Below are positions 4,524 to 30,113 of a DNA stretch of 48,151 nucleotides, piece by piece (the stretch's first letter is position 1; each line of letters opens with the position of its first letter). This stretch comes from Akkermansiaceae bacterium (GTDB taxonomy: Bacteria; Verrucomicrobiota; Verrucomicrobiia; Verrucomicrobiales; Akkermansiaceae). The stretch is taken from NCBI GenBank assembly GCA_013001695.1, contig JABDMC010000066.1, positions 1-48,151 of the forward strand, read 5' to 3'. A program made the translations under genes and the position numbers. Under the pieces are notes generated by a model. The model worked only from the letters and a program-made list of their open reading frames with translations, was not told the origin of the DNA and did no database searches.

Positions 4524-5671
4524 CTGCCATGCGCCCGTTCTTCTTCCTCGTCCTCGCCTCCGCAACGGCGTCTCACGGCGAGCTCCGCCAAGGCCAGTTC
4601 CGCACCCCGGAGGCCGCCCGTGAGGATCTCGCCGCCCTCGCGCAGCAGTATCCCGACAAGGCCGCCTGGAAGAACCGCGCCGCCCTGGTCCGCAAAGGCA
4701 TCCTCGAAGGCGCCGGACTCGATCCCCTTCCGGAACGCACTCCGCTCAACGCAGTCCGCCACTCGCTGCGCAAGCTCGACGGCTGCACGGTGGAAAACGT
4801 CTCCCTCGAAACCGCCCCCGGCCTTTTCCTCGCCGGCAACCTCTGGCTCCCCGCCGACCCGCCGGACAAGATGCCGGTCGTCCTCGCGCCCCACGGACAT
4901 GGACGCGACCTGAAGCACGTCAATGACGGTCGCTACAGGCCCGAAAAGCAAACCCGACACCAATCCGTCGCCCGCATGGGCTGCGCCGTCCTCTCCTACG
5001 ACATGGTCGGCTACGGCGACTCACGCAAACTCGGCTGGATCCACAAGCAGACCCCCAACGTCCTCCGCCTCCAGACGTGGAACTCGATCCGGGCCCTCGA
5101 TTTCATGCTCGGCCTGCCGAACGTCGACCCGAAGCGCGTCGCGGTCTCCGGCTCCTCCGGTGGCGGCACCCAGACCTTCCTCCTCGCCGCCATCGACGAT
5201 CGCGTCACCCTTTCCGCCCCCTGCGTCATGGTCTCGGCCCACTTCTACGGCGGATGCGACTGCGAGAGCGGCCTCCCGATCCACGTCCGCCCCACCCACA
5301 AGACCAACAACGCCGAAATCGCGGCCCTCATCGCCCCGAAGCCGCTCCTCGTCATCAGTTGCGGCGGCGATTGGACCAGGCACGTCCCCGACCTCGAGTT
5401 CCCCCACCTGCAGCACATCTATTCGCTCCTCGACGCCAAGGAGATGGTCGAGAACGCCCACTTCGCGGACGAAAAGCACGACTACGGGCCGAACAAGCGC
5501 AAGGCCCTCTACGCATTCCTCGGGAAGCACTTCGGACTCGACCCGGCCAGGGCCGACGAGTCCCGCACCAGGCTCCTCAGCCACACCGACCTGCAGGTCT
5601 TCACGGAGAAGCACCCCCTTCCCGCCCACGCCATCAAGTTCGGGGAGACGGTGACCCTGCCCGCGCCGTGA
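4520..5671 (+). CDS. Exported alpha/beta hydrolase (acetylxylan-esterase-like)
   Basis: Predicted secreted esterase, 383 residues. The start at 4520 overlaps the preceding sulfatase stop by ATGA; a second in-frame ATG at 4529 would give a slightly tidier signal peptide (MRPFFFLVLASATASHG). The alpha/beta-hydrolase signature is clear: oxyanion-hole region VVLAPHGHG, nucleophile elbow G211-S-S213-G-G, acid residue near D284 in VISCGGDWT, and a likely catalytic His at 320 in EKHDYG. The ordering resembles the acetylxylan esterase/CE7-like families and the planctomycete hydrolases found beside sulfatases. It probably removes ester groups from the same glycan the two upstream sulfatases act on; that role is inferred from operon position. 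Confidence 0.85.
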   Translation: MTAMRPFFFLVLASATASHGELRQGQFRTPEAAREDLAALAQQYPDKAAWKNRAALVRKGILEGAGLDPLPERTPLNAVRHSLRKLDGCTVENVSLETAPGLFLAGNLWLPADPPDKMPVVLAPHGHGRDLKHVNDGRYRPEKQTRHQSVARMGCAVLSYDMVGYGDSRKLGWIHKQTPNVLRLQTWNSIRALDFMLGLPNVDPKRVAVSGSSGGGTQTFLLAAIDDRVTLSAPCVMVSAHFYGGCDCESGLPIHVRPTHKTNNAEIAALIAPKPLLVISCGGDWTRHVPDLEFPHLQHIYSLLDAKEMVENAHFADEKHDYGPNKRKALYAFLGKHFGLDPARADESRTRLLSHTDLQVFTEKHPLPAHAIKFGETVTLPAP

Positions 5672-5865: not shown

Positions 5866-8055
5866 CTATTTTTCGACGGCTGCGCGGGTCACCGGAAGCG
5901 GGCAGCCGCGGACTTCGACGCCATCTCGGGTGTATCGCACGGTCGTCCATTGATCCCCGATGGGAAGTCGAATCTCCATCCACTCCCAGCACCTTGGAAC
6001 CGCGGGCCGGATCGTGAAGTTCTGATCGGGAAGGGAATAGTCCAGCCCACCGAAACCCTCCAGGTAGAGCAGAATCTTCCCGGCGTTGAAGTTCGAATAC
6101 TGGTCGCCAAACAGGGTGACATCCCGTTCGTAGGCCTCGGGCGCGACCGGGACCTCCCATTCATCGTGCCAATTGTATCCGGCGAGGTGATTCAGCGTCA
6201 GCTCGGTCGCCTCGTCCACCAGGCCCTGGCGAAACATGCCGTCGAGGGTGAAATAGGCGGTGTCCGGAGTGTAGCCGAATGAGTGGTCAACCTCCGTGGC
6301 AAAGGCCTTCATCGACTGCCTGGACATGGCGAGGGGAAAGAACTCGCCGAAAAAGCCCTTCTCCCGGTCGAGGGCCCACGTCCGGACCATGGCCGCGGCG
6401 AATTCCCTCGGAAAGTGCGGCGAGCGCATCGCCCAGAATCCGTTGGTCGTCAGCATGCCATTGCCGGGAGCGGCGAAGTACTTGGGAACGCCGTTCATCT
6501 CCCAGCGTTGATCGAGCATGAGTCGAATATGCCCGGGATCGCGGGATATGATCTCCTGCCAGTGCTTGACGTCGGCCTCCTTGCCGAGGACGCGCGCCAT
6601 CTTCTCGAGCGTCTCGGCAAGCTCGAACTCGTTCATCGAAAAGTTGGCGAGGCGCTTTCGGTAAAGCTTCTCGAAGTGGTCTTCGTAGCACGCTTTCAGG
6701 AATTCGACGTCGCCGGTGTGCTCGTAGATCTGCCAGGCCCCGAGGACGTGTTCGGAAGTCTCGGCGCCGTACGCTCCGCTGTGCCAGGCGACCCCCTTGT
6801 TGTCGGAGATCATGCGGATGCCGTTGGGCAGTTCGCGATATCGATCGTTCCTGGTGAGGTGCTTCCACGTCAGCACATTCCCGTAGGCGTAGCGGGGTTT
6901 GTCGGCCGTCCACGCACCAACCTTGATCTGGAAGGCGGCGTCGTGGCGATGCATGCCGAGGAAATTGTTCACCGCGGTCTGGGTGTGGTTCTCCCTCTCC
7001 CATCCATCGCCCACCTCGATGTAGTACATGAGATAGAGCGCCCAAAGGTAGTAGTAGATATCGACGAACTTCCTGTCGGGGCAGCGGAACCAGGGGATCT
7101 CCTCGTTGAGCTGCCGGTTCATCTCGTCCGTCTTCGCGGCGAGCATCGGGCCGTGGTTCCGGATGATGTCCTCGACCGCCTCGAGGGCGGCCGGCTCCTC
7201 ATCGTGCATGGCCCACGCAACGGCGGTTCCCTCGCGGTCACAGGGGACCGAGAAGGTGTAATGCTGGACGCCGTTCTCGTCCCGCCTCGTCTCGAGGGTT
7301 TCCGCGATGTGGCGGGAGGCGCTCAGGGCCGTGGTCATCCCGCTGTACACCGACGGGCCGACGCGTTCGGGGCCGTCCGGGTCGGGCCGGGACTTCATGG
7401 TGCCGCCTTCGAGAATCAGGAGCGCGCGCCGGGAGGCGTCGAGCTTGATCGCAGCCCGGGAAGAGACGCTGTTCCTCGTGTGGAAGCTGTGCCCGGAAAA
7501 CTGCAGCGTCACCGGCTTCGAGGCGGTGATGATGGACGCGGCAGCATCGTTGGCGGCTATGAACTTCTCCTCCCGGATGGTAACGCCGGCGACCTCGTAC
7601 ACGCAGATCATCTTGTCCGGCCGCCAACGCATGCTTTTCGGCCTGGGGGTCGCGTGCGTTTTCCCGTCGACGATGACGCTGCCGTAGAGAACCCGGGTGT
7701 CCTTGTAGAATTCCCAACTGAGGTAGTCGTTGCCTCGCCCCGTGTTCTCCCTGCCGCTGATCTCGCTCTCGACCAGGGCCGCCCCGCGGGCCCGGAGGTC
7801 GTGATGGAAGGGATGGGTCAGGCCGATGGTCTCGTCCTCGACGGGCTTCCAGCTGGCATGGTAACCGCCGACGTAATAGGTCACGTTCCCGGCGAGGAAT
7901 CCGTGCTTCCTCCCCTGAATCTCGTGCTCCAGCCGTTGGCAGTAGTCCGTGAACCCGGGCTTCTCGCCGGCGATCAGGTTTCCAATTCCAAGGCAGCACA
8001 GGAACATCGTCACGGCGCGCAGCCATCCCCCGGTGTGTCGATTCTCCGCGCTCAT
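5866..8055 (-). CDS. Exported (alpha/alpha)6-barrel glycosidase-like protein (MGH1/GH63-like)
   Basis: Predicted exported protein of 729 residues. ATG at 8055 is chosen because it gives an N-terminus with a hydrophobic stretch (AVTMFLCCLGIGNLIAG). The N-terminal third is beta-rich; the C-terminal two thirds look like an (alpha/alpha)6 toroid, with WALYLMYYIEVGDGW, GMHRHDAAFQIKVGAW, VAWHSGAYGAETSEHVLGAW, LDQRWEMNGVPKYFA and an ending of the type YSLPDQNFTIRPAVP found in MGH1-like and GH63/GH65-like proteins. That layout suggests cleavage of an alpha-linked glycan. Catalytic acids cannot be assigned with confidence. A cupin gene lies 95 bp upstream on the same strand and may be co-transcribed. 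The family assignment is at the fold level only. Confidence 0.7.
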   Translation of the reverse strand: MSAENRHTGGWLRAVTMFLCCLGIGNLIAGEKPGFTDYCQRLEHEIQGRKHGFLAGNVTYYVGGYHASWKPVEDETIGLTHPFHHDLRARGAALVESEISGRENTGRGNDYLSWEFYKDTRVLYGSVIVDGKTHATPRPKSMRWRPDKMICVYEVAGVTIREEKFIAANDAAASIITASKPVTLQFSGHSFHTRNSVSSRAAIKLDASRRALLILEGGTMKSRPDPDGPERVGPSVYSGMTTALSASRHIAETLETRRDENGVQHYTFSVPCDREGTAVAWAMHDEEPAALEAVEDIIRNHGPMLAAKTDEMNRQLNEEIPWFRCPDRKFVDIYYYLWALYLMYYIEVGDGWERENHTQTAVNNFLGMHRHDAAFQIKVGAWTADKPRYAYGNVLTWKHLTRNDRYRELPNGIRMISDNKGVAWHSGAYGAETSEHVLGAWQIYEHTGDVEFLKACYEDHFEKLYRKRLANFSMNEFELAETLEKMARVLGKEADVKHWQEIISRDPGHIRLMLDQRWEMNGVPKYFAAPGNGMLTTNGFWAMRSPHFPREFAAAMVRTWALDREKGFFGEFFPLAMSRQSMKAFATEVDHSFGYTPDTAYFTLDGMFRQGLVDEATELTLNHLAGYNWHDEWEVPVAPEAYERDVTLFGDQYSNFNAGKILLYLEGFGGLDYSLPDQNFTIRPAVPRCWEWMEIRLPIGDQWTTVRYTRDGVEVRGCPLPVTRAAVEK

Positions 8056-12765: not shown

Positions 12766-13995
12766 CTACCCCGCGGGGTTTTCGTACCAGATCACGCCGA
12801 GCCCGCGGCTCTTGGGTCCGTCGTTTTCCTCGCAGGTGAGCACGTCGAGATCACCGTCGCCGTCGAGGTCGAGCAACTCGAGGCGGTCGAACTTGCTCCC
12901 GCGCTCCCGGCCGCTCACGGGATGCCACGTCCACTCCGCATCGAGCGACTGCCCCGCCCGCGAGAAGCATGCCACCCCGTGCCTGCCCTCCGCCATCCCG
13001 CAGGACACGGCCACGTCGAGTTGCCCGTCCCCATCGATGTCGCCCAGGCCCGCGGCCTTGGCGCGGCCCATCCCGAATTTCTTCAGGCGGATCGAACTCT
13101 CGGCCCACTTGCGGCCCGATTGGTCGAGGCGCCTCGCCACCACCACGACCGACTCCCGCGCGTAGGCCCCGAAGACAACGTCTTCCAACCCGTCGCCGTC
13201 GAGATCCCCGGCATCGAGGAACATGTAGTTGGTCCCCTTCTCCTCCGATCGTGACACGAGGTGGCTCTTCCACGGCATCCGCTGCAACTCGCCCGGCCCC
13301 GGATTCTCCAGCCAGCGGACCGCGGCGTCCGCTCCCTTCCGGTCCGAGATGAGGACATCATCATCGCCGTCCCCGTCCATGTCGCGGGAGCGGATCGACA
13401 TCACCCACCCCACCGGTCCGATCGGGTGGTAACGATATGCGCCGGTCTGCCGGCCGTCCTCCGGCGCCTCGAACCAGCCGATTTCCGCGGCGCGGCCCTT
13501 TCCGCCGGCCACGAGGTCGATCCCGTGCCTCCCATCGACCTGCATGGGCACCGCGAACATCCACATCATCCGTCCCTGCGATGCCGGGAGAGCCTCGGTC
13601 TGCCACGCATCCCCGTCCCGCAGGCGCTTCCCGTCCGCCGGCCCCCAATGCACGAAAATCGATTTCGTCCTTCCTTCACAGCAACTCACCACGTCGAGGC
13701 GCCCGTCACCGTCGAGGTCGACAAACATGGCGTCCTCCACGTGCGGCGTCTTCCCGACCGTCACCGCCGGCCACGCCTCGCGGGCCTTCTCCGGCCCGGG
13801 GTTCAGGCAAACCCGCGTGAACCCGCCTTCTTCCCATCCCGTCACCACGTCCGGCCGCCCGTCCCGGTCGACATCCCCGAGACGCACCCCGTCCGCCCCG
13901 CTCGAGAAGTCGTCGATCCCGTGCCGCGTCCACGATTCCTCCCCCCCGGCGGCGGCCAGCGTGGCCGCCAATGCAAGCATGACGCGCCTCCTCAT
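12766..13995 (-). CDS. Exported FG-GAP/VCBS-repeat beta-propeller protein
   Basis: 409 residues. ATG 13995 opens a signal peptide (MRRRVMLALAATLAAAGG). Six copies of a calcium-binding FG-GAP/VCBS loop can be counted (DVDRDGRPDVVTG, DLDGDGRLDVVSC, DMDGDGDDDVLIS, DLDGDGLEDVVFG, DIDGDGQLDVAVS, DLDGDGDLDVLTC), each followed by a WxxNPG- or WxxAP-like strand. Together they should fold as an integrin-type seven-bladed propeller. The protein probably binds rather than cleaves; it could hold glycan or partner enzymes at the cell surface. It lies 4 bp downstream of the CE15 esterase gene and is the last gene of a tightly coupled (-) operon. Confidence 0.88.
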   Translation of the reverse strand: MRRRVMLALAATLAAAGGEESWTRHGIDDFSSGADGVRLGDVDRDGRPDVVTGWEEGGFTRVCLNPGPEKAREAWPAVTVGKTPHVEDAMFVDLDGDGRLDVVSCCEGRTKSIFVHWGPADGKRLRDGDAWQTEALPASQGRMMWMFAVPMQVDGRHGIDLVAGGKGRAAEIGWFEAPEDGRQTGAYRYHPIGPVGWVMSIRSRDMDGDGDDDVLISDRKGADAAVRWLENPGPGELQRMPWKSHLVSRSEEKGTNYMFLDAGDLDGDGLEDVVFGAYARESVVVVARRLDQSGRKWAESSIRLKKFGMGRAKAAGLGDIDGDGQLDVAVSCGMAEGRHGVACFSRAGQSLDAEWTWHPVSGRERGSKFDRLELLDLDGDGDLDVLTCEENDGPKSRGLGVIWYENPAG

Positions 13996-13999
13996 GACC

Positions 14000-15283
14000 T
14001 CACTGCTTCACCGGCATCCAGCGGTCTGCAAAGTCGAGGTAGTGCCGCCAATCCCACTCGGTGATGTCGTGCCTTCCGGTCCGGAGGTGATAGCGCATCA
14101 CCCTCCCGGCGGGCCGGCCCGGCGCCGGCTGCTCGTCGACCCCGAGGGGATCGTCATGGTAGAGGGCGTAGACCGGCGCCGCGTGCCTCAAGGCCAGGAA
14201 CTCCCCCTTCGGATCCGCCCAGCGGTCGCCGGTGGCGCTCGCCACGTACACCGGGCGCGGCGCGATCAGGGCGATCAGCTGATGCTGATCGACCGGAAGC
14301 TCCCCCTCGTTTTCGTTGTAGCGGCGGAAGTTCGTGCAGAACCAGTGCGGGAAGCTCGTGTTGATGCGTCCCACCGTCTCGCCCACGGCCCGCTTGCTCA
14401 AGGCCGCGCCGCCGCACCCGGAGTTGTTCGAGATGACCATCGCGAAGCGCTCGTCGTTGGCCCCCGCCCACAAGGCGGTCTTGCCGAGCCGCGAGTGTCC
14501 GATCACCGCCACGCGCCCGGCATCGACTTCCTCGATCTCCCCCAGCACATCCAGGAGGCGGCTCAGGCCCCACGCCCATCCCGCGACGGTCCCCCAACTG
14601 TCGCCGGTGCGCTCACCGGGAAACATCCCGTGCACGCCATTCTTGAAGCCATCGTCGAAATCCGGGTCGATGTCCCCGCAGCACGCCGTCGCGAGGGCGT
14701 AGCCCCGCTCCACGAGCATCTTGGCCGGCCAGCGTGTCGCCCCGTCGCCGCGCGACGCCTCGGTGGCGCGGTGGTCCTTCACGGCTTGGCCGCGCCCGAT
14801 GATGTAGCCGTCCTCCATCGTGATGTCCGGATCGGGCTCCACGAGCTGGTTCCCCCGAAAGTTCAGCCCGAGGAAGGCCGGGGAGGGGCCCGCGGCCTTC
14901 TTCGGGACGTAGAGGAGCATCCGGATTTCCGGGCCGCCCTCCGTTCCGAAGCGGACGAGATACTCCCGCCGCACCGCGGTTCCCCCGAGGGCCTCGGTAT
15001 TCTCCTTGGCGACGGTCCAGGTGAGCTTCGGCGCATCACCCGCCGGCACCCGCCCGTAGACGTGCGTGCGAAAGAGCTCCAGGGTCCGCGGCCGCCCGGA
15101 TTCTTCCCACTCCGCGGCGGTGGCCGCCTTCCCGCCGCCTCCCGGCGCCAGCGGGTCCGCCAGTTCGTAGGGCGGCACCTTGGCTTCATCGTAGTTCGGC
15201 ACGAACTTCTTCTCGGCCGCGCCCGCGCTCATCGCACCGGCCAGCATGCACGCCACCCCGCCCATTGTAAGCAAGCAATTCAT
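14000..15283 (-). CDS. CE15 glucuronoyl (methyl)esterase
   Basis: 427 residues, exported. ATG 15283 is chosen because it starts one base after the upstream stop and opens a signal peptide (MNCLLTMGGVACMLAGAMSA). The CE15 hallmarks are plain: nucleophile motif G262-H-S264-R-L-G, then SNNSGCGGAALSKR, FPHWFCTNFRRY, DQHQLIALIAPRPVYVASA and WADPKGEFLA, with the catalytic His in GRHDITEWDW. Family members split esters between 4-O-methyl-glucuronic acid of xylan and lignin or other alcohols; bacterial members have wider uses. Position 263 is His, where fungal enzymes have Cys; bacterial members vary here. It is coupled to the sulfatase-DUF1080 fusion (1-bp gap) and the FG-GAP gene (4-bp gap). Confidence 0.93.
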   Translation of the reverse strand: MNCLLTMGGVACMLAGAMSAGAAEKKFVPNYDEAKVPPYELADPLAPGGGGKAATAAEWEESGRPRTLELFRTHVYGRVPAGDAPKLTWTVAKENTEALGGTAVRREYLVRFGTEGGPEIRMLLYVPKKAAGPSPAFLGLNFRGNQLVEPDPDITMEDGYIIGRGQAVKDHRATEASRGDGATRWPAKMLVERGYALATACCGDIDPDFDDGFKNGVHGMFPGERTGDSWGTVAGWAWGLSRLLDVLGEIEEVDAGRVAVIGHSRLGKTALWAGANDERFAMVISNNSGCGGAALSKRAVGETVGRINTSFPHWFCTNFRRYNENEGELPVDQHQLIALIAPRPVYVASATGDRWADPKGEFLALRHAAPVYALYHDDPLGVDEQPAPGRPAGRVMRYHLRTGRHDITEWDWRHYLDFADRWMPVKQ

Positions 15284-15284
15284 T

Positions 15285-17705
15285 CTAGTGGATTTCCCTG
15301 ATACGGATCTTCCGGAACCGGTGCAGCCCGCCCTTTCCGTGGTGCTGCAACGCCACCGCCCCGCGGGAAAACTTCTCGTCACGCACGTCGGCGGTGAGGA
15401 CGCCGTTCACCCAGGTCCGGATGCGGTCAGCTTCCGCCCGGATGCGAATCGCGTTCCATTCCTCCGGCTGGAAACAATCGCCGGCCATTTCCCGGAAGCG
15501 TTTCTTCTCGGCGGCGCCCTTCGGCCAGACCCACCCCGAACCGATCGCGTAGATCATCCCGGTCTCCTTCCCCGCCACCTCGCACTGGTATCCCCGCGGC
15601 TTTCCCTTCGCCGCCACGCACCGGAAGCCGATTCCCGAGTTGTACTTGTCCGGCGGCATCTTCACCTCGGCCTGCAGCTCGAAGTCGGCGAACTGCCTGC
15701 CGTGCAGGAGCCAGAGGTTTTTTCCTTCCGCCAGGATCCGGATCTCGCCGTCCTTCGCCTCGACCCGGCCATCCGCCAACGCCGTCCACCCCTCGAGGCT
15801 CTCGCCGTCGAACAACGGCACCCACTCGCCGGTGTTCTCCCCGTCCGCCCTTGCCCGCTCGAGGAACGCCTGCGCCGCAAAGCCGATGAACATGGCGAGG
15901 TCCTGCTCGCCCGAGGCCACCACCGTGGCGGGAAGGTCCGGCGGCCGGATCTTGTGCGCCCGCGCGAGGGCCTTCTCCATCGCCGGAACCGCCCCGCGGG
16001 CCGCCGCGCCAAGCAACTCGATGGCGCGCGCCGCATACAGCACCGTGGTGAGATCCGCCGATTCCAGTTCCGCCGTCAGAACCGGCAGGGCCTTCTTCAT
16101 TTCGCCCCGGCGGGCGAGGGCGTCCGCGGCGGCGATGCGCACCGCCGCCGACTTCCACCCGAGTTGTTCCTGCAACTGCCTGTGCTCCGCCTCCGACAGC
16201 TGCGGCTGCTGATTCGCGGCGATTGCCGCCCAGTAACCGCCGATCGCCCGCGGGTCGAGCAGGCGCTCCGCGGCCGGGTTGTCGCCGCGCCGCGACTCCC
16301 ACGGCGTCGTCCCCTTCGCGAGCTTCCACATCTCGATCTCCGGCACGTCCCCGAGATCCCTCGTGTCCCGCATGTGCTTCTGCAGGGCGCGCCGCATGAG
16401 GTTCCGGGTCCCGCGCGAGGCCGCCTCCCCGGCAAGGTTGACGAGGTTGTGCGGGTCGGCCTCGCAGTCGTACAGTTCCTCCGGCGGCCGCGTCGGCCCC
16501 GCGAACTGCCATTGCGCCGCGGTCATTTCGGCCCGGTCGGTCAACCGGTAGAATTCATGACGGATCTCGCCGCCGTCCGGCCAGGCCGTCGGCTGGTTGT
16601 AGCCGAGGTGCGGCATGTAGTTCTTGATGTAGAGGAACCGCTTGTCCCGCACCGACCGGGCCATGTCGATGGCCTCGTCGACGCGGTCGCGGTGCCCGAA
16701 GACGAAGCTGCGCGGCGGGCCGGCCTCATCGCCGAGAAACGCCACGCCCTGCATGTAGTCCGGAATCGGCGCCCCCGCGAGGCTGAGGACCGTCGGCGCG
16801 AAATCCACGAAGCTCACCAGGCGGCCGACCGGTTCCCCGGGCTTCGCCGGGGCGAGGCGGGCGAACTTTTCCGGAAAGCGCACCAGCAGCGGCACGTGCA
16901 TGCCGCTGTCGAAAAGCGCCCGCTTGTGCCGCGGCATCCCGGACCCGTGGTCGGAATAGAAAAAGACGATCGTGTCGTCCGCGAGACCGTCGTCGTCGAG
17001 TTGCTTCAGGATCGCCCCGACCTCCTTGTCCATCGCCGTGACGCAATCGTAATAGCGGGCCACCGTTTTGCGCACCACGGGCGTGTCGACGTAGTAGGGC
17101 GGCAGGGGCACCTTGGCGGGATCGTGAATCTCGTCCGGTGACAGGCGGCCCTGCACCTCCGCCACGAAGCGCTCATGGGGCCAGACCATCGTGCGGCTCT
17201 GGTGGGAGGTCATGAGGTTGAAGGTGCTGAAGAACGGCTTCGACTTCTCCGGCCTCATCCGCCAATGCGCCTCGGCGCTGCTCTCGTTCCACGACTCCTT
17301 CACGATCCGCTCCCAACTCGCGGTGTTGTAGTCCGTCTTGACGTTGTTGGTCGTGAAATACCCCGCCTCCCTGCGCAGGATCGCCGGGAAGCCCGTCATG
17401 AACTCCGGGATCGGGAAGGACGACCGCATCTGCATCGTCCCCAGCGACGGCGCGTAGCAGCCGGTGATCAGGCACGAGCGCGACGGCGAACACACCGGGG
17501 CGGTCGCAAAGGCACGCGTGTAGCGCACGCTTTCCTCCGCGAGCCGGTCGATGTGCGGCGTGGTGGCGAAATCATCGCCATAGCACCCGAGGGTGGCGCT
17601 CATGTCCTCGGCCGTGATCCAGAGGATGTTCGGGCGGGCCCCGCCGCCCACCGCCGCGAGCCCCGTGCCGGAGATCAGGATGGCGAGAAGGAAGAGGCGC
17701 ATCAT
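15285..17705 (-). CDS. Sulfatase-HEAT-DUF1080 fusion protein
   Basis: 806 residues, exported. Start at ATG 17705 (ATG 17702 is the next codon) with signal peptide MMRLFLLAILISGTGLAAVG. Residues about 24-460 are an S1 sulfatase: motif C72-S-P-S-R-SCLITG, second metal-site region FFYSDHGSGMPRHK; the first metal pair is Glu-Asp (TAEDMS). Residues about 520-600 are short HEAT-like helices (VRIAAADALARRGEMKKALP). Residues about 626-806 form a DUF1080/3-keto-disaccharide-hydrolase-type jelly roll (WVPLFDGESLEGW, NSGIGFRC, WNAIRIRAEADRIRTWVNG). Sulfatase and DUF1080 domains usually sit on separate proteins, so one chain may combine sulfate removal with carbohydrate binding or cleavage. It is coupled to the CE15 gene by a 1-bp gap. 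Confidence 0.9.
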   Translation of the reverse strand: MMRLFLLAILISGTGLAAVGGGARPNILWITAEDMSATLGCYGDDFATTPHIDRLAEESVRYTRAFATAPVCSPSRSCLITGCYAPSLGTMQMRSSFPIPEFMTGFPAILRREAGYFTTNNVKTDYNTASWERIVKESWNESSAEAHWRMRPEKSKPFFSTFNLMTSHQSRTMVWPHERFVAEVQGRLSPDEIHDPAKVPLPPYYVDTPVVRKTVARYYDCVTAMDKEVGAILKQLDDDGLADDTIVFFYSDHGSGMPRHKRALFDSGMHVPLLVRFPEKFARLAPAKPGEPVGRLVSFVDFAPTVLSLAGAPIPDYMQGVAFLGDEAGPPRSFVFGHRDRVDEAIDMARSVRDKRFLYIKNYMPHLGYNQPTAWPDGGEIRHEFYRLTDRAEMTAAQWQFAGPTRPPEELYDCEADPHNLVNLAGEAASRGTRNLMRRALQKHMRDTRDLGDVPEIEMWKLAKGTTPWESRRGDNPAAERLLDPRAIGGYWAAIAANQQPQLSEAEHRQLQEQLGWKSAAVRIAAADALARRGEMKKALPVLTAELESADLTTVLYAARAIELLGAAARGAVPAMEKALARAHKIRPPDLPATVVASGEQDLAMFIGFAAQAFLERARADGENTGEWVPLFDGESLEGWTALADGRVEAKDGEIRILAEGKNLWLLHGRQFADFELQAEVKMPPDKYNSGIGFRCVAAKGKPRGYQCEVAGKETGMIYAIGSGWVWPKGAAEKKRFREMAGDCFQPEEWNAIRIRAEADRIRTWVNGVLTADVRDEKFSRGAVALQHHGKGGLHRFRKIRIREIH

Positions 17706-17823
17706 GCCACCGGCAAGGGGATGGGAAATGCCCCCGCGCCGCAAGGAGAAAGGCCGGGGAGACGCCCCGGAAGGCGGCCACGGATACGGCCGATGGCCGC
17801 CGCCCTCCCCCGATCGTCCCCGT

Positions 17824-19353
17824 CTACTCGCAGGAAAGCCGGAGGGCCTCGAGGATGGGCCTCGATTTGTTCTCCGTCGAATCCTCGAGCTTCAGCTCCA
17901 CTTGAAATCCGAATCCGGCGGGCAGCCCGGAGAGATCCATCTCGGCCGGAGTCCTGCTGACCTGCTTGGAAAACCCCGGGATGTAGTCGTAGGTTTCCTT
18001 GACCTCCTGCCACGGTGTCCATTCGTCGATGGCGCCATCCCCGGTTGTGTCGACCCCGACGCGGGCGGACACCGTCTCGACCCACGGGCCCGGGCTGACG
18101 TAGTCCGTCTTCTGCTGCGTCGCGAGGTAGAATTGCCCTTCCGCGAAGCAGATGTCCGGGTCGGGGTGCCCGTTGCCGATCTTGTCGCACCAGGCAAACT
18201 GCTGATCGATCGACGGCGAGGTGAACCACCCGACGCTCATCTGATGGCCGTCCGCGGGATCGTAGTCGCCGAACAGGTAGTACTGCCCTCCGACCGCGAT
18301 CGCCGCCCAGTCGCCGTAGGCTTCCTGCGCGGGCTCGTGGACCTCGTACTCGGCGACGTTTGTCTTGTAGTGTTCCGGGTCCTCCTTGGCCCAATGGGGG
18401 TGGGTGTAGGTCCGCTTCTCCCCGGTCGGCTTGGTCCGGTTGTCGACGGCGTAGCCCCGAATCTCGAACCGGTCGATTCCGTTCGGGCTGACCGCGTGCC
18501 CGGCGAGCGGCGAGTCCCATGACCGTTTGCTCGCGTTGATCGGGCTCCAGTCCTCGAAGATGACGTGCACCTTGCCATCGAGGGCGCGGATGAACCCGGC
18601 ATCGGAACCATGCGAGGGGTCGTCCACGGCCTTCCCCTTGTTCTCCCCGGGTTCGCCGTCGGTGAGGTCCTCGTCGACGTAGACGTGCGAATCCTGGTCG
18701 TTCGGGAAGTCGTAGTAGATCATCGTCTTTCCGTCGACGTGCTCGGCACTGGTGACCCATGCCGAGAACCGCTCCGTCACCGGTCCGTGATGGACCCAGT
18801 TCACCATGTCGCGGCTCTGCCACGCATGATATCCGCCCGTGCGGGGTTTCAATCCGCCGGGGGCGTCGAACTGGTTGGGAAAGCGGGTGGTCAGGAGGGG
18901 AACGTCAAAGCCTTCGAGGGTGGCGGGTTCGGGCTTGAACTCGGGCAACGCCTTCGGCTTCCGGCCTTTCTTCCGCCGCGGTTGGCCGCTTCCGTAGCGG
19001 CCGAACATCCAGTAGTCGTCGGGCCCGATGGTGAGGAGGACGGGCGCATCGCCGAGGTTCACCGGGCCGAGGTTCTCGATCGGATTCCAGTTTTGCCAGA
19101 TCGGCGACTGCGTGATCCGCAGCGACTTCGCGGAGCGCTTCTTGTCGAATCTCCGGATGCTGGTCTTCAGCGTTCCCGATTTTCCGGTGAGGGTGGCCGT
19201 CCCGTCGGCGATCACGATTCCCTCGGAGGCGCTGACCGCCTTTTGCCACTCCTCCTGGGTGTCGATGTTCCATCCTGCCCCGGCGGCCGGGGCCGGGGAG
19301 ATTGCGAGGCACAGGATTCCGGGGAGGACGACGTGTCTACGGATGGGTGTCAT
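17824..19353 (-). CDS. Exported GH43-like five-bladed beta-propeller protein
   Basis: 509 residues with signal peptide MTPIRRHVVLPGILCLAISP from ATG 19353. The middle part repeats the pattern of GH43/GH32-type propellers: WMFGRYGSG, SRDMVNWVHHGPVT, MIYYDFPNDQD, SPNGIDRFEIRGY, GGQYYLFGDYDPADG, DPDICFAEGQFYLATQQKTD. The Asp and Glu residues at these blade ends could be catalytic but cannot be assigned safely. The C-terminal portion (VGVDTTGDGAIDEWTPWQEV and on) is a further beta domain. Likely role: an arabinosidase-, xylosidase- or galactosidase-like enzyme on a side chain. It lies 24 bp downstream of the EF-hand sulfatase gene and 118 bp upstream of the sulfatase-DUF1080 gene. Confidence 0.75.
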   Translation of the reverse strand: MTPIRRHVVLPGILCLAISPAPAAGAGWNIDTQEEWQKAVSASEGIVIADGTATLTGKSGTLKTSIRRFDKKRSAKSLRITQSPIWQNWNPIENLGPVNLGDAPVLLTIGPDDYWMFGRYGSGQPRRKKGRKPKALPEFKPEPATLEGFDVPLLTTRFPNQFDAPGGLKPRTGGYHAWQSRDMVNWVHHGPVTERFSAWVTSAEHVDGKTMIYYDFPNDQDSHVYVDEDLTDGEPGENKGKAVDDPSHGSDAGFIRALDGKVHVIFEDWSPINASKRSWDSPLAGHAVSPNGIDRFEIRGYAVDNRTKPTGEKRTYTHPHWAKEDPEHYKTNVAEYEVHEPAQEAYGDWAAIAVGGQYYLFGDYDPADGHQMSVGWFTSPSIDQQFAWCDKIGNGHPDPDICFAEGQFYLATQQKTDYVSPGPWVETVSARVGVDTTGDGAIDEWTPWQEVKETYDYIPGFSKQVSRTPAEMDLSGLPAGFGFQVELKLEDSTENKSRPILEALRLSCE

Positions 19354-19377
19354 GGGTCACGGGCGTTGAGGTCGGGG

Positions 19378-21471
19378 CTATCTTGCCGAGTCGATGACGT
19401 ATTCTTTGCGCGAGACCACGCCGTCGCCATTCTTGTCGAAATTCCTGAACCGCCGCTCGAGGTTTTTGCCGGTCTGCCCGGCAAGGTACTCCGCCAGCGT
19501 GAGGATGCCGTCCCGGTCCGTATCCCACCGGTTGAAGGGAACATTGCGGTCCCCCTTCGCCCGCTTTGCCGGTGCCGTCGGCCCGGCATCGCTCCCGCCC
19601 TCCGCAGGCAAGGCCGAACCGGCAAAGGAGTTCTTTCCGGGAACCACCTCCGGGTAACTGCGGAGGAACCGGTTCTCATCCACCAGGTTGAGGTAGTAGT
19701 GGGTCGTGCCATCCGGGAGTTCCGCCGTGACGCGGTTCCCGTCGTGCAGCTTCGCCGGCAGTCGAAACCACTCCTCGTATCGCGCCCCGCCGTTGCGGGT
19801 GTAGATCACGTCGGCCTGCACCACCCCGGCTCCCCTCTCCTCGAACCGGAACTCGACCGTTCGGCCGGTCCTGCGGTGGCTTTGCACGATGCAGACCTCG
19901 TCCTTGTGGGGCAGCGGGGCCTGGCAGTGCGGGTTGTAATAGGGATAGCTGGCGTTCATCCCGTTGAGAATCGCGGTCAGGCGGGCGTTCATTTCGCGCG
20001 TCTTGCCGGGCATGGCCTCCGCCAGGTTGTGGGCCTCCTCGATGTCGGCCCGCTTCTGCCCGCCGCCGGTCGTCTCGTAGAGCCGGAAGAGCTCGAGCCC
20101 GCTGGTCGACGGGTTCCCGACGTGGTCGTAGTTGCGCACCAGCTTGAAGTCGCCGGTTCGAATCGTGCTTTCGAGGGCCACGCCGTGGGGGAAGTGCCAG
20201 ACCATCGTGTCGCGGACCGACCCGTCGGGGTGCCTGACGAGCCGCGGATCGGCCGGGTTCTTCCGCAGGAGCGGCAGCAGGTCGCATCCGTCGAGGTTCT
20301 TCCCCTTCGGCCGCGGGGTGCCGGTCATCGACAGGATGGTGGGATAGAAGTCGAGGCCGTTGGCCATCACGTCGGTTTGCACGCCCGCCGGAATCCCCGG
20401 CCCCGTGATGATGAGGGGCACCCGCGTCCCGCCTTCCATGGCGGAGATCTTGCCCCGGGCCAGCGGCCGGTTGTCGGTGTAGCGTTCCTCCGGCCCGCCT
20501 TCCATGCCGCCGTTGTCGGAGGTGAAGATCAGGTAGGTGTTCTCGCTGAGCTTGTGCCCCGGCCAGCGTGGATCGTCGGTCTCGTCCAGGTAGTCGAACA
20601 GGATGCCCAGGTAGTAGTCGAGCTCCTCGACCATCGCGCAGTAGAACGGATTCAGCTGGCCCGGGGTGTCCTGCTTCGGGGTGGCCGCCGGATCGATGCC
20701 GAGGCGCTTGGCGTACTTCTCGAGGCGCTCCTTCGAGCGGGTGTGGATCGGCGAATGCACCAGCCACGTCGCGTAGTAGAGGAAGAACGGCTTGCCCTTG
20801 TTCTCCCTCAGGAACGTGAGGGCATCCTCGTTGGTCTGGTGATACGGATAGCCGTTCGCGTCGAGCCGATACGGATCGCCGGCCGCCTTCGTGGCGAACC
20901 CGGCGAGTCGATCCTTCATCGCACCCCGCGAGCCGCGATCGGACCGCGTGAAATCGAAGCCCACATCGCCGGGCTGGGGAAAGGCGTTGTGGTTGATGGC
21001 GACGTGCCACTTGCCGGAGTGACCGGTGGTGTATCCGTTGCGCCGCAGGATCCTCGCCAGCGTCAACTCGTCCTCCGGCATCCTCCCGCTGTACCACGGA
21101 TCCATCATGCGGGCGTGGCGGTTGCGGGCACGGGGCGGCGCCCCGCCGACCACGTGCGTCTTCTGGGCCCGGGCCGGATGATTGCCGCTCAGGATCGCGC
21201 ACCGCGACGGCGCGCAGGTCGGAGCGGGCGCGTACCCCTGCCAGAACATGACGCCCTTCTTCGCGAGGGCGTCGAGATTCGGCGTCTCCATCGGGCTGGC
21301 CTCGTCGATGTCGTAGCACTTCACATCCTGCCAGCCGAGGTCGTCGGTGAGGATGAGAACCACGTTGGGCTTCGCGGGACGCCCGTCAGCGCCGCGCGCC
21401 TCGCCGGGAACCAGCAGTCCCCCCGCGGCCGCGGCGGTTGCCAGGATGAAAGTGATTGGCGTGTCCCGCAT
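19378..21471 (-). CDS. S1 sulfatase with C-terminal EF-hand pair
   Basis: 697 residues, exported (MRDTPITFILATAAAAGGLL from ATG 21471). S1 sulfatase core: Asp-Asp metal pair in LTDDLGW (residues 43-44), motif C86-A-P-S-R-CAILSG, SGKWHVAINH and FTSDNGGMEGG. Residues about 540-620 form an extra beta domain (VEFRFEERGAGVVQADVIY). Residues about 643-697 hold two EF-hand calcium loops, DTDRDGILTLAE (from D650) and DKNGDGVVSRKE (from D679), probably for calcium-dependent stability or docking. A -10/-35 pair stands 24 bp upstream (21495-21523), so this gene probably leads the five-gene (-) cluster reaching to 12766. Confidence 0.92.
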   Translation of the reverse strand: MRDTPITFILATAAAAGGLLVPGEARGADGRPAKPNVVLILTDDLGWQDVKCYDIDEASPMETPNLDALAKKGVMFWQGYAPAPTCAPSRCAILSGNHPARAQKTHVVGGAPPRARNRHARMMDPWYSGRMPEDELTLARILRRNGYTTGHSGKWHVAINHNAFPQPGDVGFDFTRSDRGSRGAMKDRLAGFATKAAGDPYRLDANGYPYHQTNEDALTFLRENKGKPFFLYYATWLVHSPIHTRSKERLEKYAKRLGIDPAATPKQDTPGQLNPFYCAMVEELDYYLGILFDYLDETDDPRWPGHKLSENTYLIFTSDNGGMEGGPEERYTDNRPLARGKISAMEGGTRVPLIITGPGIPAGVQTDVMANGLDFYPTILSMTGTPRPKGKNLDGCDLLPLLRKNPADPRLVRHPDGSVRDTMVWHFPHGVALESTIRTGDFKLVRNYDHVGNPSTSGLELFRLYETTGGGQKRADIEEAHNLAEAMPGKTREMNARLTAILNGMNASYPYYNPHCQAPLPHKDEVCIVQSHRRTGRTVEFRFEERGAGVVQADVIYTRNGGARYEEWFRLPAKLHDGNRVTAELPDGTTHYYLNLVDENRFLRSYPEVVPGKNSFAGSALPAEGGSDAGPTAPAKRAKGDRNVPFNRWDTDRDGILTLAEYLAGQTGKNLERRFRNFDKNGDGVVSRKEYVIDSAR

Positions 21472-21494
21472 CTCGTTCGCTTCGTCGCGGCCGG

Positions 21495-21523
21495 ATTATT
21501 CGAGATGCGGCCCCCGGGCGCAA
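21495..21523 (-). promoter_or_regulatory. Probable sigma-70-type promoter of the sulfatase operon
   Basis: Read on the (-) strand: TTGCGC (21523-21518), a 17-bp spacer, then AATAAT (21500-21495), matching the -10 consensus at 5 of 6 positions and the -35 at 3 of 6. Transcription would begin near 21488 and give a leader of about 17 nt before ATG 21471. Confidence 0.5.
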
Positions 21524-22781: not shown

Positions 22782-23708
22782 TCACTCGCCGACCGGGCCG
22801 ACGTACTCGCGCGCGATGACGACATTGTCGAAGCAGACGGTGTTCACCGGGTTCTTCGTCCAGCGGTCCGTGACGTAGCTTTCGAGGGTCAGGGCGTTGG
22901 CGTGCAGGGTGGGGCTCGTGCGCCAGCTGATGCCCTTCCAATGGCCGCGGAGCTGGCCGTCGATCCAGAAGGCCTGTTCCCCGTCCCGCTTCCCGGGGGT
23001 GTTTTCCTTCAGCATGAACTCGGCGCAGATCCACTTCTCCTTCACGATGGCCGGTTGCGCCGCGGGCCGGAAGGCGTTCCCCCAGAACTTCTTGTCGGGC
23101 GCCGGGCTCATCTCGTGCCAGTAGCTGTAGAAATTCCACTTCCCCGGCGGATCGTTCTTTCCCCAGTCGCCCCACGGCTCGAGGGCGGTCGAGAACCGTT
23201 CGTCGCCGGCCGGCTTCAGCCCGGCCCCGCCGAACCCGCTCCAGCGATCGCCGCCTTGCAGGGACTTGTTGGCGCGCAGGGTCACGAAGTGGTGCACGTA
23301 ATCGCAATCCTTGTCGAAGCGCGTGTAAAAGCGCACGAAGACGACGGGCGCCGGCTTGAACCACTTCGTCATCCCTCCCCCGGTATCGTTCCCGAGGTGC
23401 GCCTCGACGCGCAGGCTGCGTTTCCCGGCCGGCCCGCCGCCCGCATCCACCAGGCTGAGGACCGTTTCCTTGTTGCGGGTCTCGTCCCATCGCGCGCCCA
23501 CCTCCCCCGCCTCGAAATCGTCGGCGAAGATGACGGCGGGATGGTTCGCGACCGCCCCTTCCCCGCCGGCCTTCGCCGCCAGGCCGGCCCCCTCCGGCAG
23601 CGAACTGGCCGCGGCGACATTCCGCGCCCCGTCCGGGTCGCCCCCCGCCAGCGCGACGACCGGCAGGGACACAAGGGCGGCAAGCGGGCCGATCGGACGT
23701 CCCTTCAC
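22782..23708 (-). CDS. Exported jelly-roll (concanavalin-like) protein, possible polysaccharide lyase relative
   Basis: 308 residues. The start is GTG 23708, giving a signal peptide (MKGRPIGPLAALVSLPVVAL); no in-frame ATG occurs before residue 100. From residue about 60 the sequence reads as a single beta-jelly roll: FADDFEAGEVGARWDE, GGMTKWFKPAPVVFVRFYTR, YSYWHEMSPAPDKKFWG, EKWICAEFMLKENTPG, FWIDGQLRGHW, and a VCFDNVVIAREYVG ending. This order is like PL14/PL20-type or LamG-like secreted proteins. No catalytic dyad can be assigned, so it may only bind glycan. It lies 79 bp downstream of the following sulfatase gene on the same strand. Confidence 0.7.
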   Translation of the reverse strand: MKGRPIGPLAALVSLPVVALAGGDPDGARNVAAASSLPEGAGLAAKAGGEGAVANHPAVIFADDFEAGEVGARWDETRNKETVLSLVDAGGGPAGKRSLRVEAHLGNDTGGGMTKWFKPAPVVFVRFYTRFDKDCDYVHHFVTLRANKSLQGGDRWSGFGGAGLKPAGDERFSTALEPWGDWGKNDPPGKWNFYSYWHEMSPAPDKKFWGNAFRPAAQPAIVKEKWICAEFMLKENTPGKRDGEQAFWIDGQLRGHWKGISWRTSPTLHANALTLESYVTDRWTKNPVNTVCFDNVVIAREYVGPVGE

Positions 23709-23787: not shown

Positions 23788-25149
23788 TCAGAACTGTCCC
23801 GGCCATTCCTTCGACTCGCGGCGCGATGAACTCATGAGGGCGCGCAGTTTCCGGACGATATCTCCATGCCGGGCAGCAAGGTCGTTGGCCTCGGCCGGAT
23901 CCTTCGCGAGGTCATAGAGTTCGACTCCCTGCCCTCCCTTCGCCCGGATCGCCTTCCAATGCTTCCAGCGCACCGCCTGGCCGGCGCCGCGTTCGTGGAA
24001 CTCCCAGTAGAAGTGCCGGCCTTCGAACGTGGAAGGATCGCAGGCGGTGAGGGTTTCCACCACGCTGATCCCGTCTATTCCGTCCGGGGCCTCCACCCCG
24101 GCGAGGTCCGCGCAGGTTGGGAGGACGTCCGCGAACCACCACGGGACGTCGCAGGTCTTCCCCGCCGGAACGCTTCCCTTCCAGCGGACGATCATCGGGG
24201 TGCGCAGTCCGCCTTCGGTCAGGTCGCGCTTCCGCCCCCGCAAGGGGCCGGAGCTGTCGAAGCGCCCCTCCCATCGCCTCGCCGCCCCGTTGTCGGAGCA
24301 GAAGAAGACGATGGTCTCCTCCGCGAGGCCAAGTTCATCGAGGAGGTCGAGGATCCGCCCCGCGTCGCGGTCGATGCGCGTCACCATGGCGGCGTGCGAG
24401 ATCTCGTTCGGTTTCCAGTCCATCCGCCCGTAGCCATGATCCTGCGGGGGCATCTGGTACTTGTCGTGCGGCGGCGTCCACGGGACATAGAGGAAGAATC
24501 TCCGGTCCTTGTGGCGGCGGATGAAGTCGAGGGCGAAGTCGGTGCACAGGTCGTGCGCGTAGGTCCCCTCCCGGCCGTCGGCATTCCCCGGCAGCGGGAC
24601 CTTCTCGCGGTTTCGCCAGAGATAGTCCGGGTAGTGGTTGTGGGCCCGGCGCTGGTTGAGGAACCCGAACCACTCGTCGAATCCCTGGGCGTTCGGTTCG
24701 CCGCTGGTGCCCGGTTCGCCCAGCCCCCACTTGCCGGTCATCCCGGTCACGTAACCGGCAGCCTTCAGCACCTCCGCCACGGTCACATCGTCCGCCCGCA
24801 GCGGCACGCGGCCCTTGGCACCCCCGAGTCCCTGCACCCCGCCAATCCCGGTGTTGCCGCGCACGGTCGTGTGTCCGGTGTGCTGCCCGGTCATCAGGAC
24901 GCTGCGTGACGGCGCGCACACCGTCGACCCGGCGTAGCATTGCGTGAAGCGCGTCCCCTCCCGCGCCATGCCGTCGAGGCGCGGGGTGCGGATCACCTCC
25001 TGCCCGTAGCAACCGAGGTCCCCGTAGCCGAGGTCATCCGCCATGATGAAGACGATGTTCGGGCCGCGCTCCGCCTCCTCGGCCGCCCGCACGCTCGCCG
25101 CCACCAGGAATCCCAGCGCCAAACCCAACCCGAATCGCCACGAAGTCAT
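23788..25149 (-). CDS. S1 sulfatase (arylsulfatase A-like)
   Basis: 453 residues, exported. ATG 25149 is preferred; the GTG one codon earlier is possible. Signal peptide MTSWRFGLGLALGFLVAASV. All usual residues are in place: Asp-Asp pair in MADDLGYGDLGCYG (residues 38-39), motif C78-A-P-S-R-SVLMTG, TGMTGKWGLGEPG, PWTPPHDKYQMP and FFCSDNGAA. The length is near the family norm and the C-terminal part (WKHWKAIRAKGGQGVELYDL) is standard. It is probably co-transcribed with the jelly-roll protein 79 bp downstream. Substrate unknown. Confidence 0.93.
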   Translation of the reverse strand: MTSWRFGLGLALGFLVAASVRAAEEAERGPNIVFIMADDLGYGDLGCYGQEVIRTPRLDGMAREGTRFTQCYAGSTVCAPSRSVLMTGQHTGHTTVRGNTGIGGVQGLGGAKGRVPLRADDVTVAEVLKAAGYVTGMTGKWGLGEPGTSGEPNAQGFDEWFGFLNQRRAHNHYPDYLWRNREKVPLPGNADGREGTYAHDLCTDFALDFIRRHKDRRFFLYVPWTPPHDKYQMPPQDHGYGRMDWKPNEISHAAMVTRIDRDAGRILDLLDELGLAEETIVFFCSDNGAARRWEGRFDSSGPLRGRKRDLTEGGLRTPMIVRWKGSVPAGKTCDVPWWFADVLPTCADLAGVEAPDGIDGISVVETLTACDPSTFEGRHFYWEFHERGAGQAVRWKHWKAIRAKGGQGVELYDLAKDPAEANDLAARHGDIVRKLRALMSSSRRESKEWPGQF

Positions 25150-25307
25150 CACGCTGAATAATCACTTTCCAAAGACCCGGCCCGCCTTCCGGACGGAGCG
25201 GTCCCCCGGGTGCCTTCCCGGGCACCGCGTCCACCCTTCGTATCCCATCCCCGCGGCCTCGGAAAGCACTCATGAGCACCATTACCCGCCGGGAGCGCCC
25301 CTGCCGG

Positions 25308-28616: not shown

Positions 28617-30113
28617 ATGAAACGTCGCCGCTTTCTTGCCACCACCGGGGGAGCCCTGGCCGCCGCGCCACACGCCTCGAGATCCCGGGAAGCCGCCAGC
28701 GCGGCGCATCCGAACATCCTCTACCTGTTCTCCGACCAGTGGCGGAGCACCGACCACGGCTACGCCGGCAACACCGAGGTCCGGACGCCCCACATCGACG
28801 GCCTCGCCCGGGAAGCGGTCAATTTCTCCAACGCGGTATCGGGCATTCCGGTCTGCTGCCCGCACCGGGCGTGCCTGTTGACCGGCCAGTACCCGCTCAC
28901 CCACGGCCTCTTCCTGAATGACCTGCGCCTCAATACCAATGCCCCCTCGTTTGCCCACGCCCTGGCGTCGGCGGGCTACGATACCGGTTACATCGGGAAG
29001 TGGCACCTCGACGGCACCGGCCGCTCGGCCTACATCCCGCCCGAGCGCCGCCAGGGATTCGACTACTGGAAGGTCCTCGAGTGCACGCACAACTACAACA
29101 AGTCGCAGTACTACGACAAGACCGGGACGGAGCCGAAGGTGTGGGACGGCTACGACGCCTACGCGCAGACGCGCGACGCGGTCCGCTACATCCAGTCCCG
29201 GGCCCGCCCCTCGGGGGAAGATGGCGCTGCCGACGAAGGCAAACCGTGGTCGTTGTTTCTCTCCTGGGGCCCGCCCCACGCGCCGTACCGGACCGGTCCG
29301 AAGAAGTGGCTCGACCGCTACGACAAGGAGAACCTCACCCTCCGGAAGAACGTGCCGCCCGGCAAGGCGAAGGTCGCGCAGGAAACCTACGCCGGCTACT
29401 ACGCGCACTGCAGCGCCCTCGACGAGTGCGTCGGCTGGCTCATGGACGCCCTGCGGGAATCCGGGCAGCTCGAGCACACCATCATCGTCTACACGTCCGA
29501 CCACGGGGACATGCTCTGGTCGCGCGGACAGCTGAAGAAGCAGCGCCCCTGGGACGAATCGCTGCGGGTCCCCTTCCTGGTGCGCTGTCCGGAGTCCATG
29601 AAGGTCACGCCGAAGACCATCGCGGCGCCGATCAACACCCCGGACATCATGCCCACCGTGCTCTCCCTCGCCGGGGCGGGCGTTCCCGACTCGGTGGAGG
29701 GCGAGGACTTCTCCCCGGTGATCCGTGGCGAGAAGACCATGGACGACAACCACGCCCTCATCACCTGTCCGGCGCCGTTCGGCCAGTGGCAGCGCAAGGA
29801 CGGCGGCCGGGAATACCGCGGCATCCGCACCAACCGCTACACCTACACCCGCGCTCTCGACGGCCCGTGGGAGCTCTTTGACAACCAGGCCGACCCCTTC
29901 CAGCAGGAGAATCTCCTCGGCAAGCCGGGGCGCAAGGCCCTCCACGACGAGCTCGAGGACAAGCTCCGGGAGCGCCTCGCGCAAACCGGCGACGACTTCG
30001 CCCCGGCCGCCGAACTGATCAAGCGCGGCGGCTACCGGGTCGACGCCGGCGGGACCGTCGGCTATCGCGACGAGAAGTCGCTGGGCCAGGTCTCGAAGCC
30101 CTGCCGCGGATAG
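28617..30113 (+). CDS. Tat-exported S1 sulfatase with CCPHR motif
   Basis: 498 residues. The N-terminus is MKRRRFLATTGGALAAAPHA, a twin-arginine-type signal. Core: metal region LFSDQWRS (Asp-Gln in place of Asp-Asp), motif C80-C-P-H83-R-ACLLTG, GYIGKWHLDGTG, SWGPPHAPYRTGP and YTSDHGDMLWSRG. His at the fourth motif position, where most family members have Ser, Thr or Ala, is less common; Cys80, Pro82 and Arg84 are kept, so conversion to formylglycine should still be possible. The Tat route suggests folding with metal before export. The gene is alone, with a patatin gene 140 bp downstream. Confidence 0.92.
   Translation: MKRRRFLATTGGALAAAPHASRSREAASAAHPNILYLFSDQWRSTDHGYAGNTEVRTPHIDGLAREAVNFSNAVSGIPVCCPHRACLLTGQYPLTHGLFLNDLRLNTNAPSFAHALASAGYDTGYIGKWHLDGTGRSAYIPPERRQGFDYWKVLECTHNYNKSQYYDKTGTEPKVWDGYDAYAQTRDAVRYIQSRARPSGEDGAADEGKPWSLFLSWGPPHAPYRTGPKKWLDRYDKENLTLRKNVPPGKAKVAQETYAGYYAHCSALDECVGWLMDALRESGQLEHTIIVYTSDHGDMLWSRGQLKKQRPWDESLRVPFLVRCPESMKVTPKTIAAPINTPDIMPTVLSLAGAGVPDSVEGEDFSPVIRGEKTMDDNHALITCPAPFGQWQRKDGGREYRGIRTNRYTYTRALDGPWELFDNQADPFQQENLLGKPGRKALHDELEDKLRERLAQTGDDFAPAAELIKRGGYRVDAGGTVGYRDEKSLGQVSKPCRG

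Follow-up and report, generated by a model that had tools for sequence, protein, structure and literature searches.

A five-gene sulfatase and glucuronoyl-esterase cluster of an Akkermansiaceae bacterium, read as the lineage-specific middle of an older CE15–sulfatase locus

Do five neighboring genes that code for sulfatases, a GH43-like protein, a glucuronoyl-esterase homologue and an FG-GAP repeat protein constitute one conserved unit for breakdown of a single glycan, or were they brought together within a locus that is older than most of them? The question is raised by a stretch of 48,151 nucleotides from an Akkermansiaceae bacterium (contig JABDMC010000066.1 of assembly GCA_013001695.1), hereafter the window, in which these genes, designated A to E, lie on one strand. 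The reading favored here, to which we give a probability of roughly 0.6, is that A–E form the lineage-specific middle of an older CE15–sulfatase locus, which would serve the catabolism of a sulfated, uronic acid-containing glycan outside the cytoplasm.

The genes A–E are five long open reading frames with coding-like codon usage, and the types of protein originally ascribed to them were borne out by the frames, the codon usage and the domain matches, B being GH43-like only (Table 1). The very short gaps claimed for the last three genes were found as well, i.e., 1 bp between C and D (C stop TAG at 15287–15285, D ATG at 15283–15281) and 4 bp between D stop and E ATG. The A/B spacing is 24 bp, and that of B/C is 79–118 bp, set by the choice of the C start, for which the frame opens at TTG 17744 and ATG 17705 or 17702 is likelier. 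A terminator-like hairpin (17770–17754) lies between B and C, where folding is no better than in shuffles (z −0.04); because of this gap and the weak hairpin, C–D–E is the tightest part of the cluster. The promoter-like pair proposed for positions 21495–21523 can be seen by eye (TTGCGC (3/6) and AATAAT, spaced by 15 nt, with its end 24 nt short of the A ATG), yet a promoter scan gave it no backing, since no site was returned where shuffles would yield 1.1. Signal-peptide-like N termini were judged by eye to be present in all five proteins, which speaks for their export, as had been claimed, to the extent that such judgement allows; export is thus predicted, and co-transcription of A–E is a possibility, with tight spacing confined to C–D–E. 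The GC and GC3 contents of A–E are those of the window and of the genome, and the idea that A–E is foreign DNA by composition was rejected.

Table 1. Location and type of the window genes discussed in the text
Feature	Position	Strand	Description
A	19378..21471	(-)	sulfatase, closest PDB chain S1_16 k-carrageenan sulfatase; C-terminal EF-hands
B	17824..19353	(-)	divergent GH43-like protein, putative five-bladed beta-propeller, predicted exported
C	15285..17705	(-)	fusion: S1_8-like sulfatase – HEAT-like – PF06439 (DUF1080, 3-keto-disaccharide hydrolase)
D	14000..15283	(-)	CE15 glucuronoyl-esterase homologue
E	12766..13995	(-)	FG-GAP repeat protein, predicted exported
Sulfatase 2823	2823..4523	(+)	closest PDB 7all, 1hdh; conserved skeleton member
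Second CE15/AXE-like hydrolase	4529..5671	(+)	PF22244 27.9 bits vs. cut-off 27
GH65/GH78-like protein	5866..8055	(-)	729 aa; weak family matches
PL14-like jelly-roll protein	22782..23708	(-)	candidate uronate lyase; upstream of A, same strand
Sulfatase 23788	23788..25152	(-)	closest PDB 7ana, 1.9e-81; conserved skeleton member
Sulfatase 28617	28617..30113	(+)	PF00884 173.7 bits; conserved skeleton member
Sulfatase 33283	33283..34773	(+)	PF00884 164 bits; conserved skeleton member
2382-aa exported protein	34887..42032	(-)	carboxypeptidase-regulatory-like domain N-terminal; no Pfam match beyond

Protein A falls within the S1 sulfatases by its PF00884 match above cut-off (144.5 bits) and by its cysteine motif CAPSR, which fits C/S-x-P/A-x-R. 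Its closest PDB chain is 9fo1 (3.6e-65), and its EF-hands (EF-hand_1, 28.8 bits) lie outside the reach of the relatives' matches, which stop near residue 610–620. No copy of A was found in any of the 14 genus-mates at E 1e-130, and homologues of 45–71% identity are present in scattered genera. For B, no Pfam family is matched at cut-off (PF04616, GH43, gives 14.1 vs. 32.2 bits, E 0.03), and GH43 is matched by 16 of 23 aligned B relatives (best 2e-9). The AF2 model of B (mean pLDDT 86.8) retrieved GH43 structures first in Foldseek (8hcj, 4.9e-9, probability 1.0), but with low TM-scores of 0.3–0.4, and no informative match came from a viral fold library; the protein may thus be termed GH43-like only, and divergent. 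Across genomes, A and B tend to be found together (Fisher p 3e-4, without correction for relatedness).

The sulfatase half of protein C, with its motif CSPSR and a PF00884 match above cut-off (148 bits), is also of the S1 type, and the five top-ranking PDB matches all carry the S1_8 name (S1_8A 9bb9, 1.1e-65); it is termed S1_8-like, subfamilies being taken here from PDB names. In C itself the HEAT stretch does not reach the cut-off, which HEAT_2 exceeds in two related S1_8 proteins. The C-terminal part matches PF06439 (DUF1080) at 121.9 bits against a curated cut-off of 26.8, and it is predicted to be a 3-keto-disaccharide hydrolase; the family includes the 3-ketotrehalose hydrolase BT2157, and a putative 3′-ketolactose hydrolase was proposed in it (PMC9007349). 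Such a fusion had been called unusual, which has to be narrowed. The sulfatase–DUF1080 fusion itself is recurrent: three are encoded by the source genome (C and two open frames, of 722 aa on C37 and of 1424 aa on C223), DUF1080 is fused N-terminal to S1_8-HEAT in 20 distinct relatives, with further cases when the order was sampled more widely, and L323 and L332 join DUF1080 to a third type of sulfatase. What was seen nowhere else, among the sequences searched, is the domain order of C (sulfatase, then DUF1080), opposite to the DUF1080–S1_8 order common in its S1_8 relatives, and the location of its gene only 1 bp ahead of one for a CE15 enzyme. In the open-access literature naming both terms, titles and abstract beginnings held no pointer to a sulfatase–DUF1080 fusion.

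How could this order have arisen? As its sister in the S1_8 tree, C has a protein of G065 that lacks DUF1080 (99/96). A first DUF1080 tree made the DUF1080 domain of C the sister of those from the N-terminal fusions (100/99), a placement suggestive of a circular permutation. A wider search brought in a standalone secreted DUF1080 protein of G033, 63% identical to the C domain, and in the tree that includes it the two pair (99/74), so that permutation is disfavored. Since the DUF1080 domain closest to that of C belongs to a standalone gene, a separate event is likelier, and C probably arose by its own, independent C-terminal fusion. Among the DUF1080 domains closest to that of C is also the one in L314:6961-10263, a cytochrome c–DUF6797–DUF1080 fusion. 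Relatives of the S1_8 part are fused to esterases too, i.e., S1_8-HEAT to a C-terminal CE15-like hydrolase (L108:1018-4305) and to a C-terminal BD-FAE-like esterase (L117:532-3381); in the window, C followed by D corresponds to the former in unfused form, and a functional link between C and D is supported by these esterase fusions.

Protein D matches PF22244 at 109.9 bits and, over its full length, OtCE15A of Opitutus terrae (PDB 6syr, 1.3e-124). Its residues S264, R265, K268, E302, D353, W355 and H405 are those of OtCE15A; the triad (S264, H405, and D353) and the GlcA-binding R265, K268, E302, and W355, which mark D as a CE15 member, vary little or not at all among 63 CE15 relatives. D may therefore be described as a CE15 homologue with a kept active site, for which activity on glucuronoyl esters is predicted. 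The source genome holds only two PF22244 matches, D and the second CE15/AXE-like hydrolase, both of which are in the window and directly behind a sulfatase gene, the second hydrolase following sulfatase 2823 at 5 bp. Protein E contains FG-GAP repeats (PF13517, 112.9 bits) and has homologues of 43–51% identity in 13 of the 14 genus-mates, on contigs that differ from those of D.

Is the cluster conserved as a whole? The original prediction took the five genes for one unit and named the absence of their order in relatives as one of the results that would speak against it. The order A–B–C–D–E was found in none of 98 related genomes, searched round A–E homologues with the flanks read for part of the matches, so that tight five-gene conservation was rejected among up to 98 relatives; this refutes the A–E unit, not the substrate idea. 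What relatives keep is D with other sulfatases. The genus-wide D locus consists of sulfatase 2823, the CE15 gene and sulfatases 23788, 28617, and 33283 (60–79% identity). In 9 of 14 genus-mates, a copy of sulfatase 2823 (76–79% identical) is no more than ~4 kb away from D, and orthologues of 23788 (68–71% near D), 28617 (~71–74%), and 33283 (75–77%) are present in the D locus wherever the contig reaches far enough. The order and orientation of this skeleton are the same as in the window wherever several members share a contig. The places of A, B, C, and E are taken by other genes in the genus-mates; at L132, the sister locus examined most closely, D and sulfatase 23788 are separated by genes for a SASA esterase and for a Gfo/Idh oxidoreductase, and the closest match of this oxidoreductase in the source genome is only 35% identical. 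Homologues of B and E in relatives are sited elsewhere than the D locus, as are the counterparts of C, which are of the DUF1080–S1_8-HEAT type. Because these counterparts have separate homes, gain of A, B, C, and E here is tentatively favored over their loss in sisters.

A parallel comes from a Bacteroidota contig (L220), where homologues of sulfatases 23788 and 2823, a CE15 gene with a DUF1080 gene directly behind it, a third sulfatase and a second CE15 gene lie on one strand; 23788 and 2823 are the best-matching of the window's seven sulfatases for the two on L220. The 2823 homologue (L220:5913-8699) is fused to an aldose 1-epimerase. Among named CE15 loci, a sulfatase is present in 10/66 and DUF1080 in 9/66 (up to 10 kb on each side, less on short contigs), hence the association is a minority one and most CE15s serve other contexts.

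One may ask if the neighborhood came about by chance, in a sulfatase-rich, shuffling genome that placed unrelated exported enzymes side by side, the functional unit being only D with the skeleton sulfatases. The genome does have 109 sulfatase matches, which amounts to an expectation of ~1.0 in 48 kb against 7 in the window, and 35 matches of PF06439; A, B, C-like, and E-like genes occupy unrelated places in relatives, A is absent from the genus-mates, and a hairpin possibly separates B and C. Against this stand the 1- and 4-bp gaps of C–D–E, the S1_8–esterase fusions of relatives, the co-occurrence of A and B, and the CE15–DUF1080–sulfatase cluster in Bacteroidota, and we regard chance as a possible but rather unlikely account. 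In favor of A–E as the middle of an older locus were counted the genus skeleton, the L220 cluster, the location of both CE15-like genes of the genome in the window, the kept residues of D, the PL14-like fold described below, the S1_8-HEAT fusions and the A/B co-occurrence.

Which glycan could be the target? The proposed sulfated polymer with uronic-acid esters is still a reasonable reading, strengthened by the uronate-binding residues kept in D and by the PL14-like fold next to the cluster, and a sulfated, uronate-containing glycan is the probable target. The PL14-like protein itself does not reach the PF21294 (PL14) cut-off (13.4 vs. 27 bits), and all 17 aligned members match the family weakly (best 2e-4); for its AF2 model (pLDDT 82) the top eight Foldseek matches are PL14, Aly36B, vAL-1, and glucuronan lyases, i.e., alginate and glucuronan lyases, with an ulvan lyase well below them. 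In the family of the GH65/GH78-like protein, 11 of 15 aligned members match GH65C (best 4e-6) and 5 of 15 Bac_rhamnosid6H (best 0.002); its homologues, mostly 60–77% identical and from scattered genera, adjoin a sulfatase in many relatives. Profile searches with both proteins against PDB sequences gave nothing useful. Several points count against the favored reading: no glycan-specific anchor enzyme has a firm family call; B and the PL14-like and GH65/78-like proteins are below Pfam cut-offs; the sulfatases with the nearest PDB structures belong to a variety of glycan systems, so that subfamily does not fix the substrate; and the A–E cluster has no 3-keto oxidase. The locus was also described as free of SusCD, and no SusC/SusD domain is present in the window frames scanned, which sets it apart from Bacteroidota-type PULs; but such absence is expected in Verrucomicrobiota (PMC8857213).

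An ulvan-type target (rhamnose, uronic acid, xylose, and sulfate) would be a special case of the favored reading, with the S1_8 sulfatase acting on xylose-2-sulfate, B as a xylosidase, the GH65/78-like protein as a rhamnosidase and the PL14-like protein as the lyase. Sulfated xylose is the substrate of P32_S1_8 in the Formosa ulvan system, Xyl-Rha3S is attacked by GH43 xylosidases (PMC9096561, PMC8360166), and the rhamnosidase-like hint in the 5866–8055 protein and the low-ranking ulvan lyase in the Foldseek list point the same way. However, the scanned frames contain no PL24, PL25, PL28, PL40 or GH105 domain, the closest PDB match of A is a carrageenan sulfatase and the domain matches are weak, which together make ulvan an unlikely target. 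A land-plant target, with the CE15 enzyme cutting lignin–glucuronoxylan esters as in Opitutus terrae, B acting on xylan side chains and the sulfatases as mere bystanders, agrees with the action of OtCE15A, the closest solved relative of D, on glucuronoxylan esters, but is quite improbable given four sulfatases in the conserved skeleton and no xylanase domain in the scanned window frames.

If A–E and its surroundings act on a sulfated uronate glycan, the reactions may be ordered as follows. The PL14-like protein would first cut the polymer at uronates, D would free the uronate carboxyl of its esters, sulfates would be stripped by A and by the sulfatase half of C together with the neighboring sulfatases, and B would trim a side sugar. 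An oxidoreductase encoded elsewhere would then make the 3-keto sugar, and the DUF1080 half of C would cleave the glycosidic bond. The joining of sulfatase and DUF1080 in C would be explained by a need to remove the sulfate next to the oxidized carbon before 3-keto cleavage, which suggests that desulfation precedes it. For sulfated glycans, such linkage of sulfate removal to 3-keto cleavage would be a route undescribed in the open-access literature searched. A bolder and distinctly doubtful idea is that S1_8-HEAT sulfatases are a modular chassis, in which repeated fusion with DUF1080 or esterase domains, in either order, ties desulfation to 3-keto (oxidation–elimination) glycan cleavage or to de-esterification. 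Were it true, sulfated glycans would be broken down by a desulfate-then-oxidize route without ordinary glycosidases, and C and D would bring desulfation, 3-keto cleavage and de-esterification side by side. Genomes of this kind hold about a hundred sulfatases whose partners are little understood, and the genus skeleton, the Bacteroidota parallel and the repeated S1_8 fusions with DUF1080 or esterases offer concrete, testable pairs.

With the SusCD-free CAZyme–sulfatase clusters of Verrucomicrobiota (PMC8857213) the window shares glycan-active genes and sulfatases without SusCD, but it is centered on CE15 and DUF1080, while those are centered on fucosidases. Protein C shares PF06439 with 3-keto-disaccharide hydrolases such as BT2157 (PMC9007349), from which it differs in that the domain is fused to a sulfatase and no oxidase adjoins. 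Its sulfatase half resembles S1_8 sulfatases of known structure (PDB 9bb9, 9bbd, and 9bba; 1e-65 to 9e-61), to which C adds the HEAT-like stretch and the C-terminal PF06439 domain. Both enzyme domains are common to C and the DUF1080–S1_8-HEAT proteins of genus-mates (L092 to L114; sulfatase part 53–63% identical among the matches listed), but in the latter the domain order is reversed and the genes occupy other genomic places, away from CE15. Finally, D keeps the nucleophile Ser, the His, the Arg, the Asp356 position and the GlcA-binding Lys271, Glu305, and Trp358 of OtCE15A (6syr), whereas Glu290 of that enzyme, in which loss of either acid cuts kcat only 1.5- to 3-fold (PMC6937553), is Asn in D, and the genomic setting of D is rich in sulfatases.
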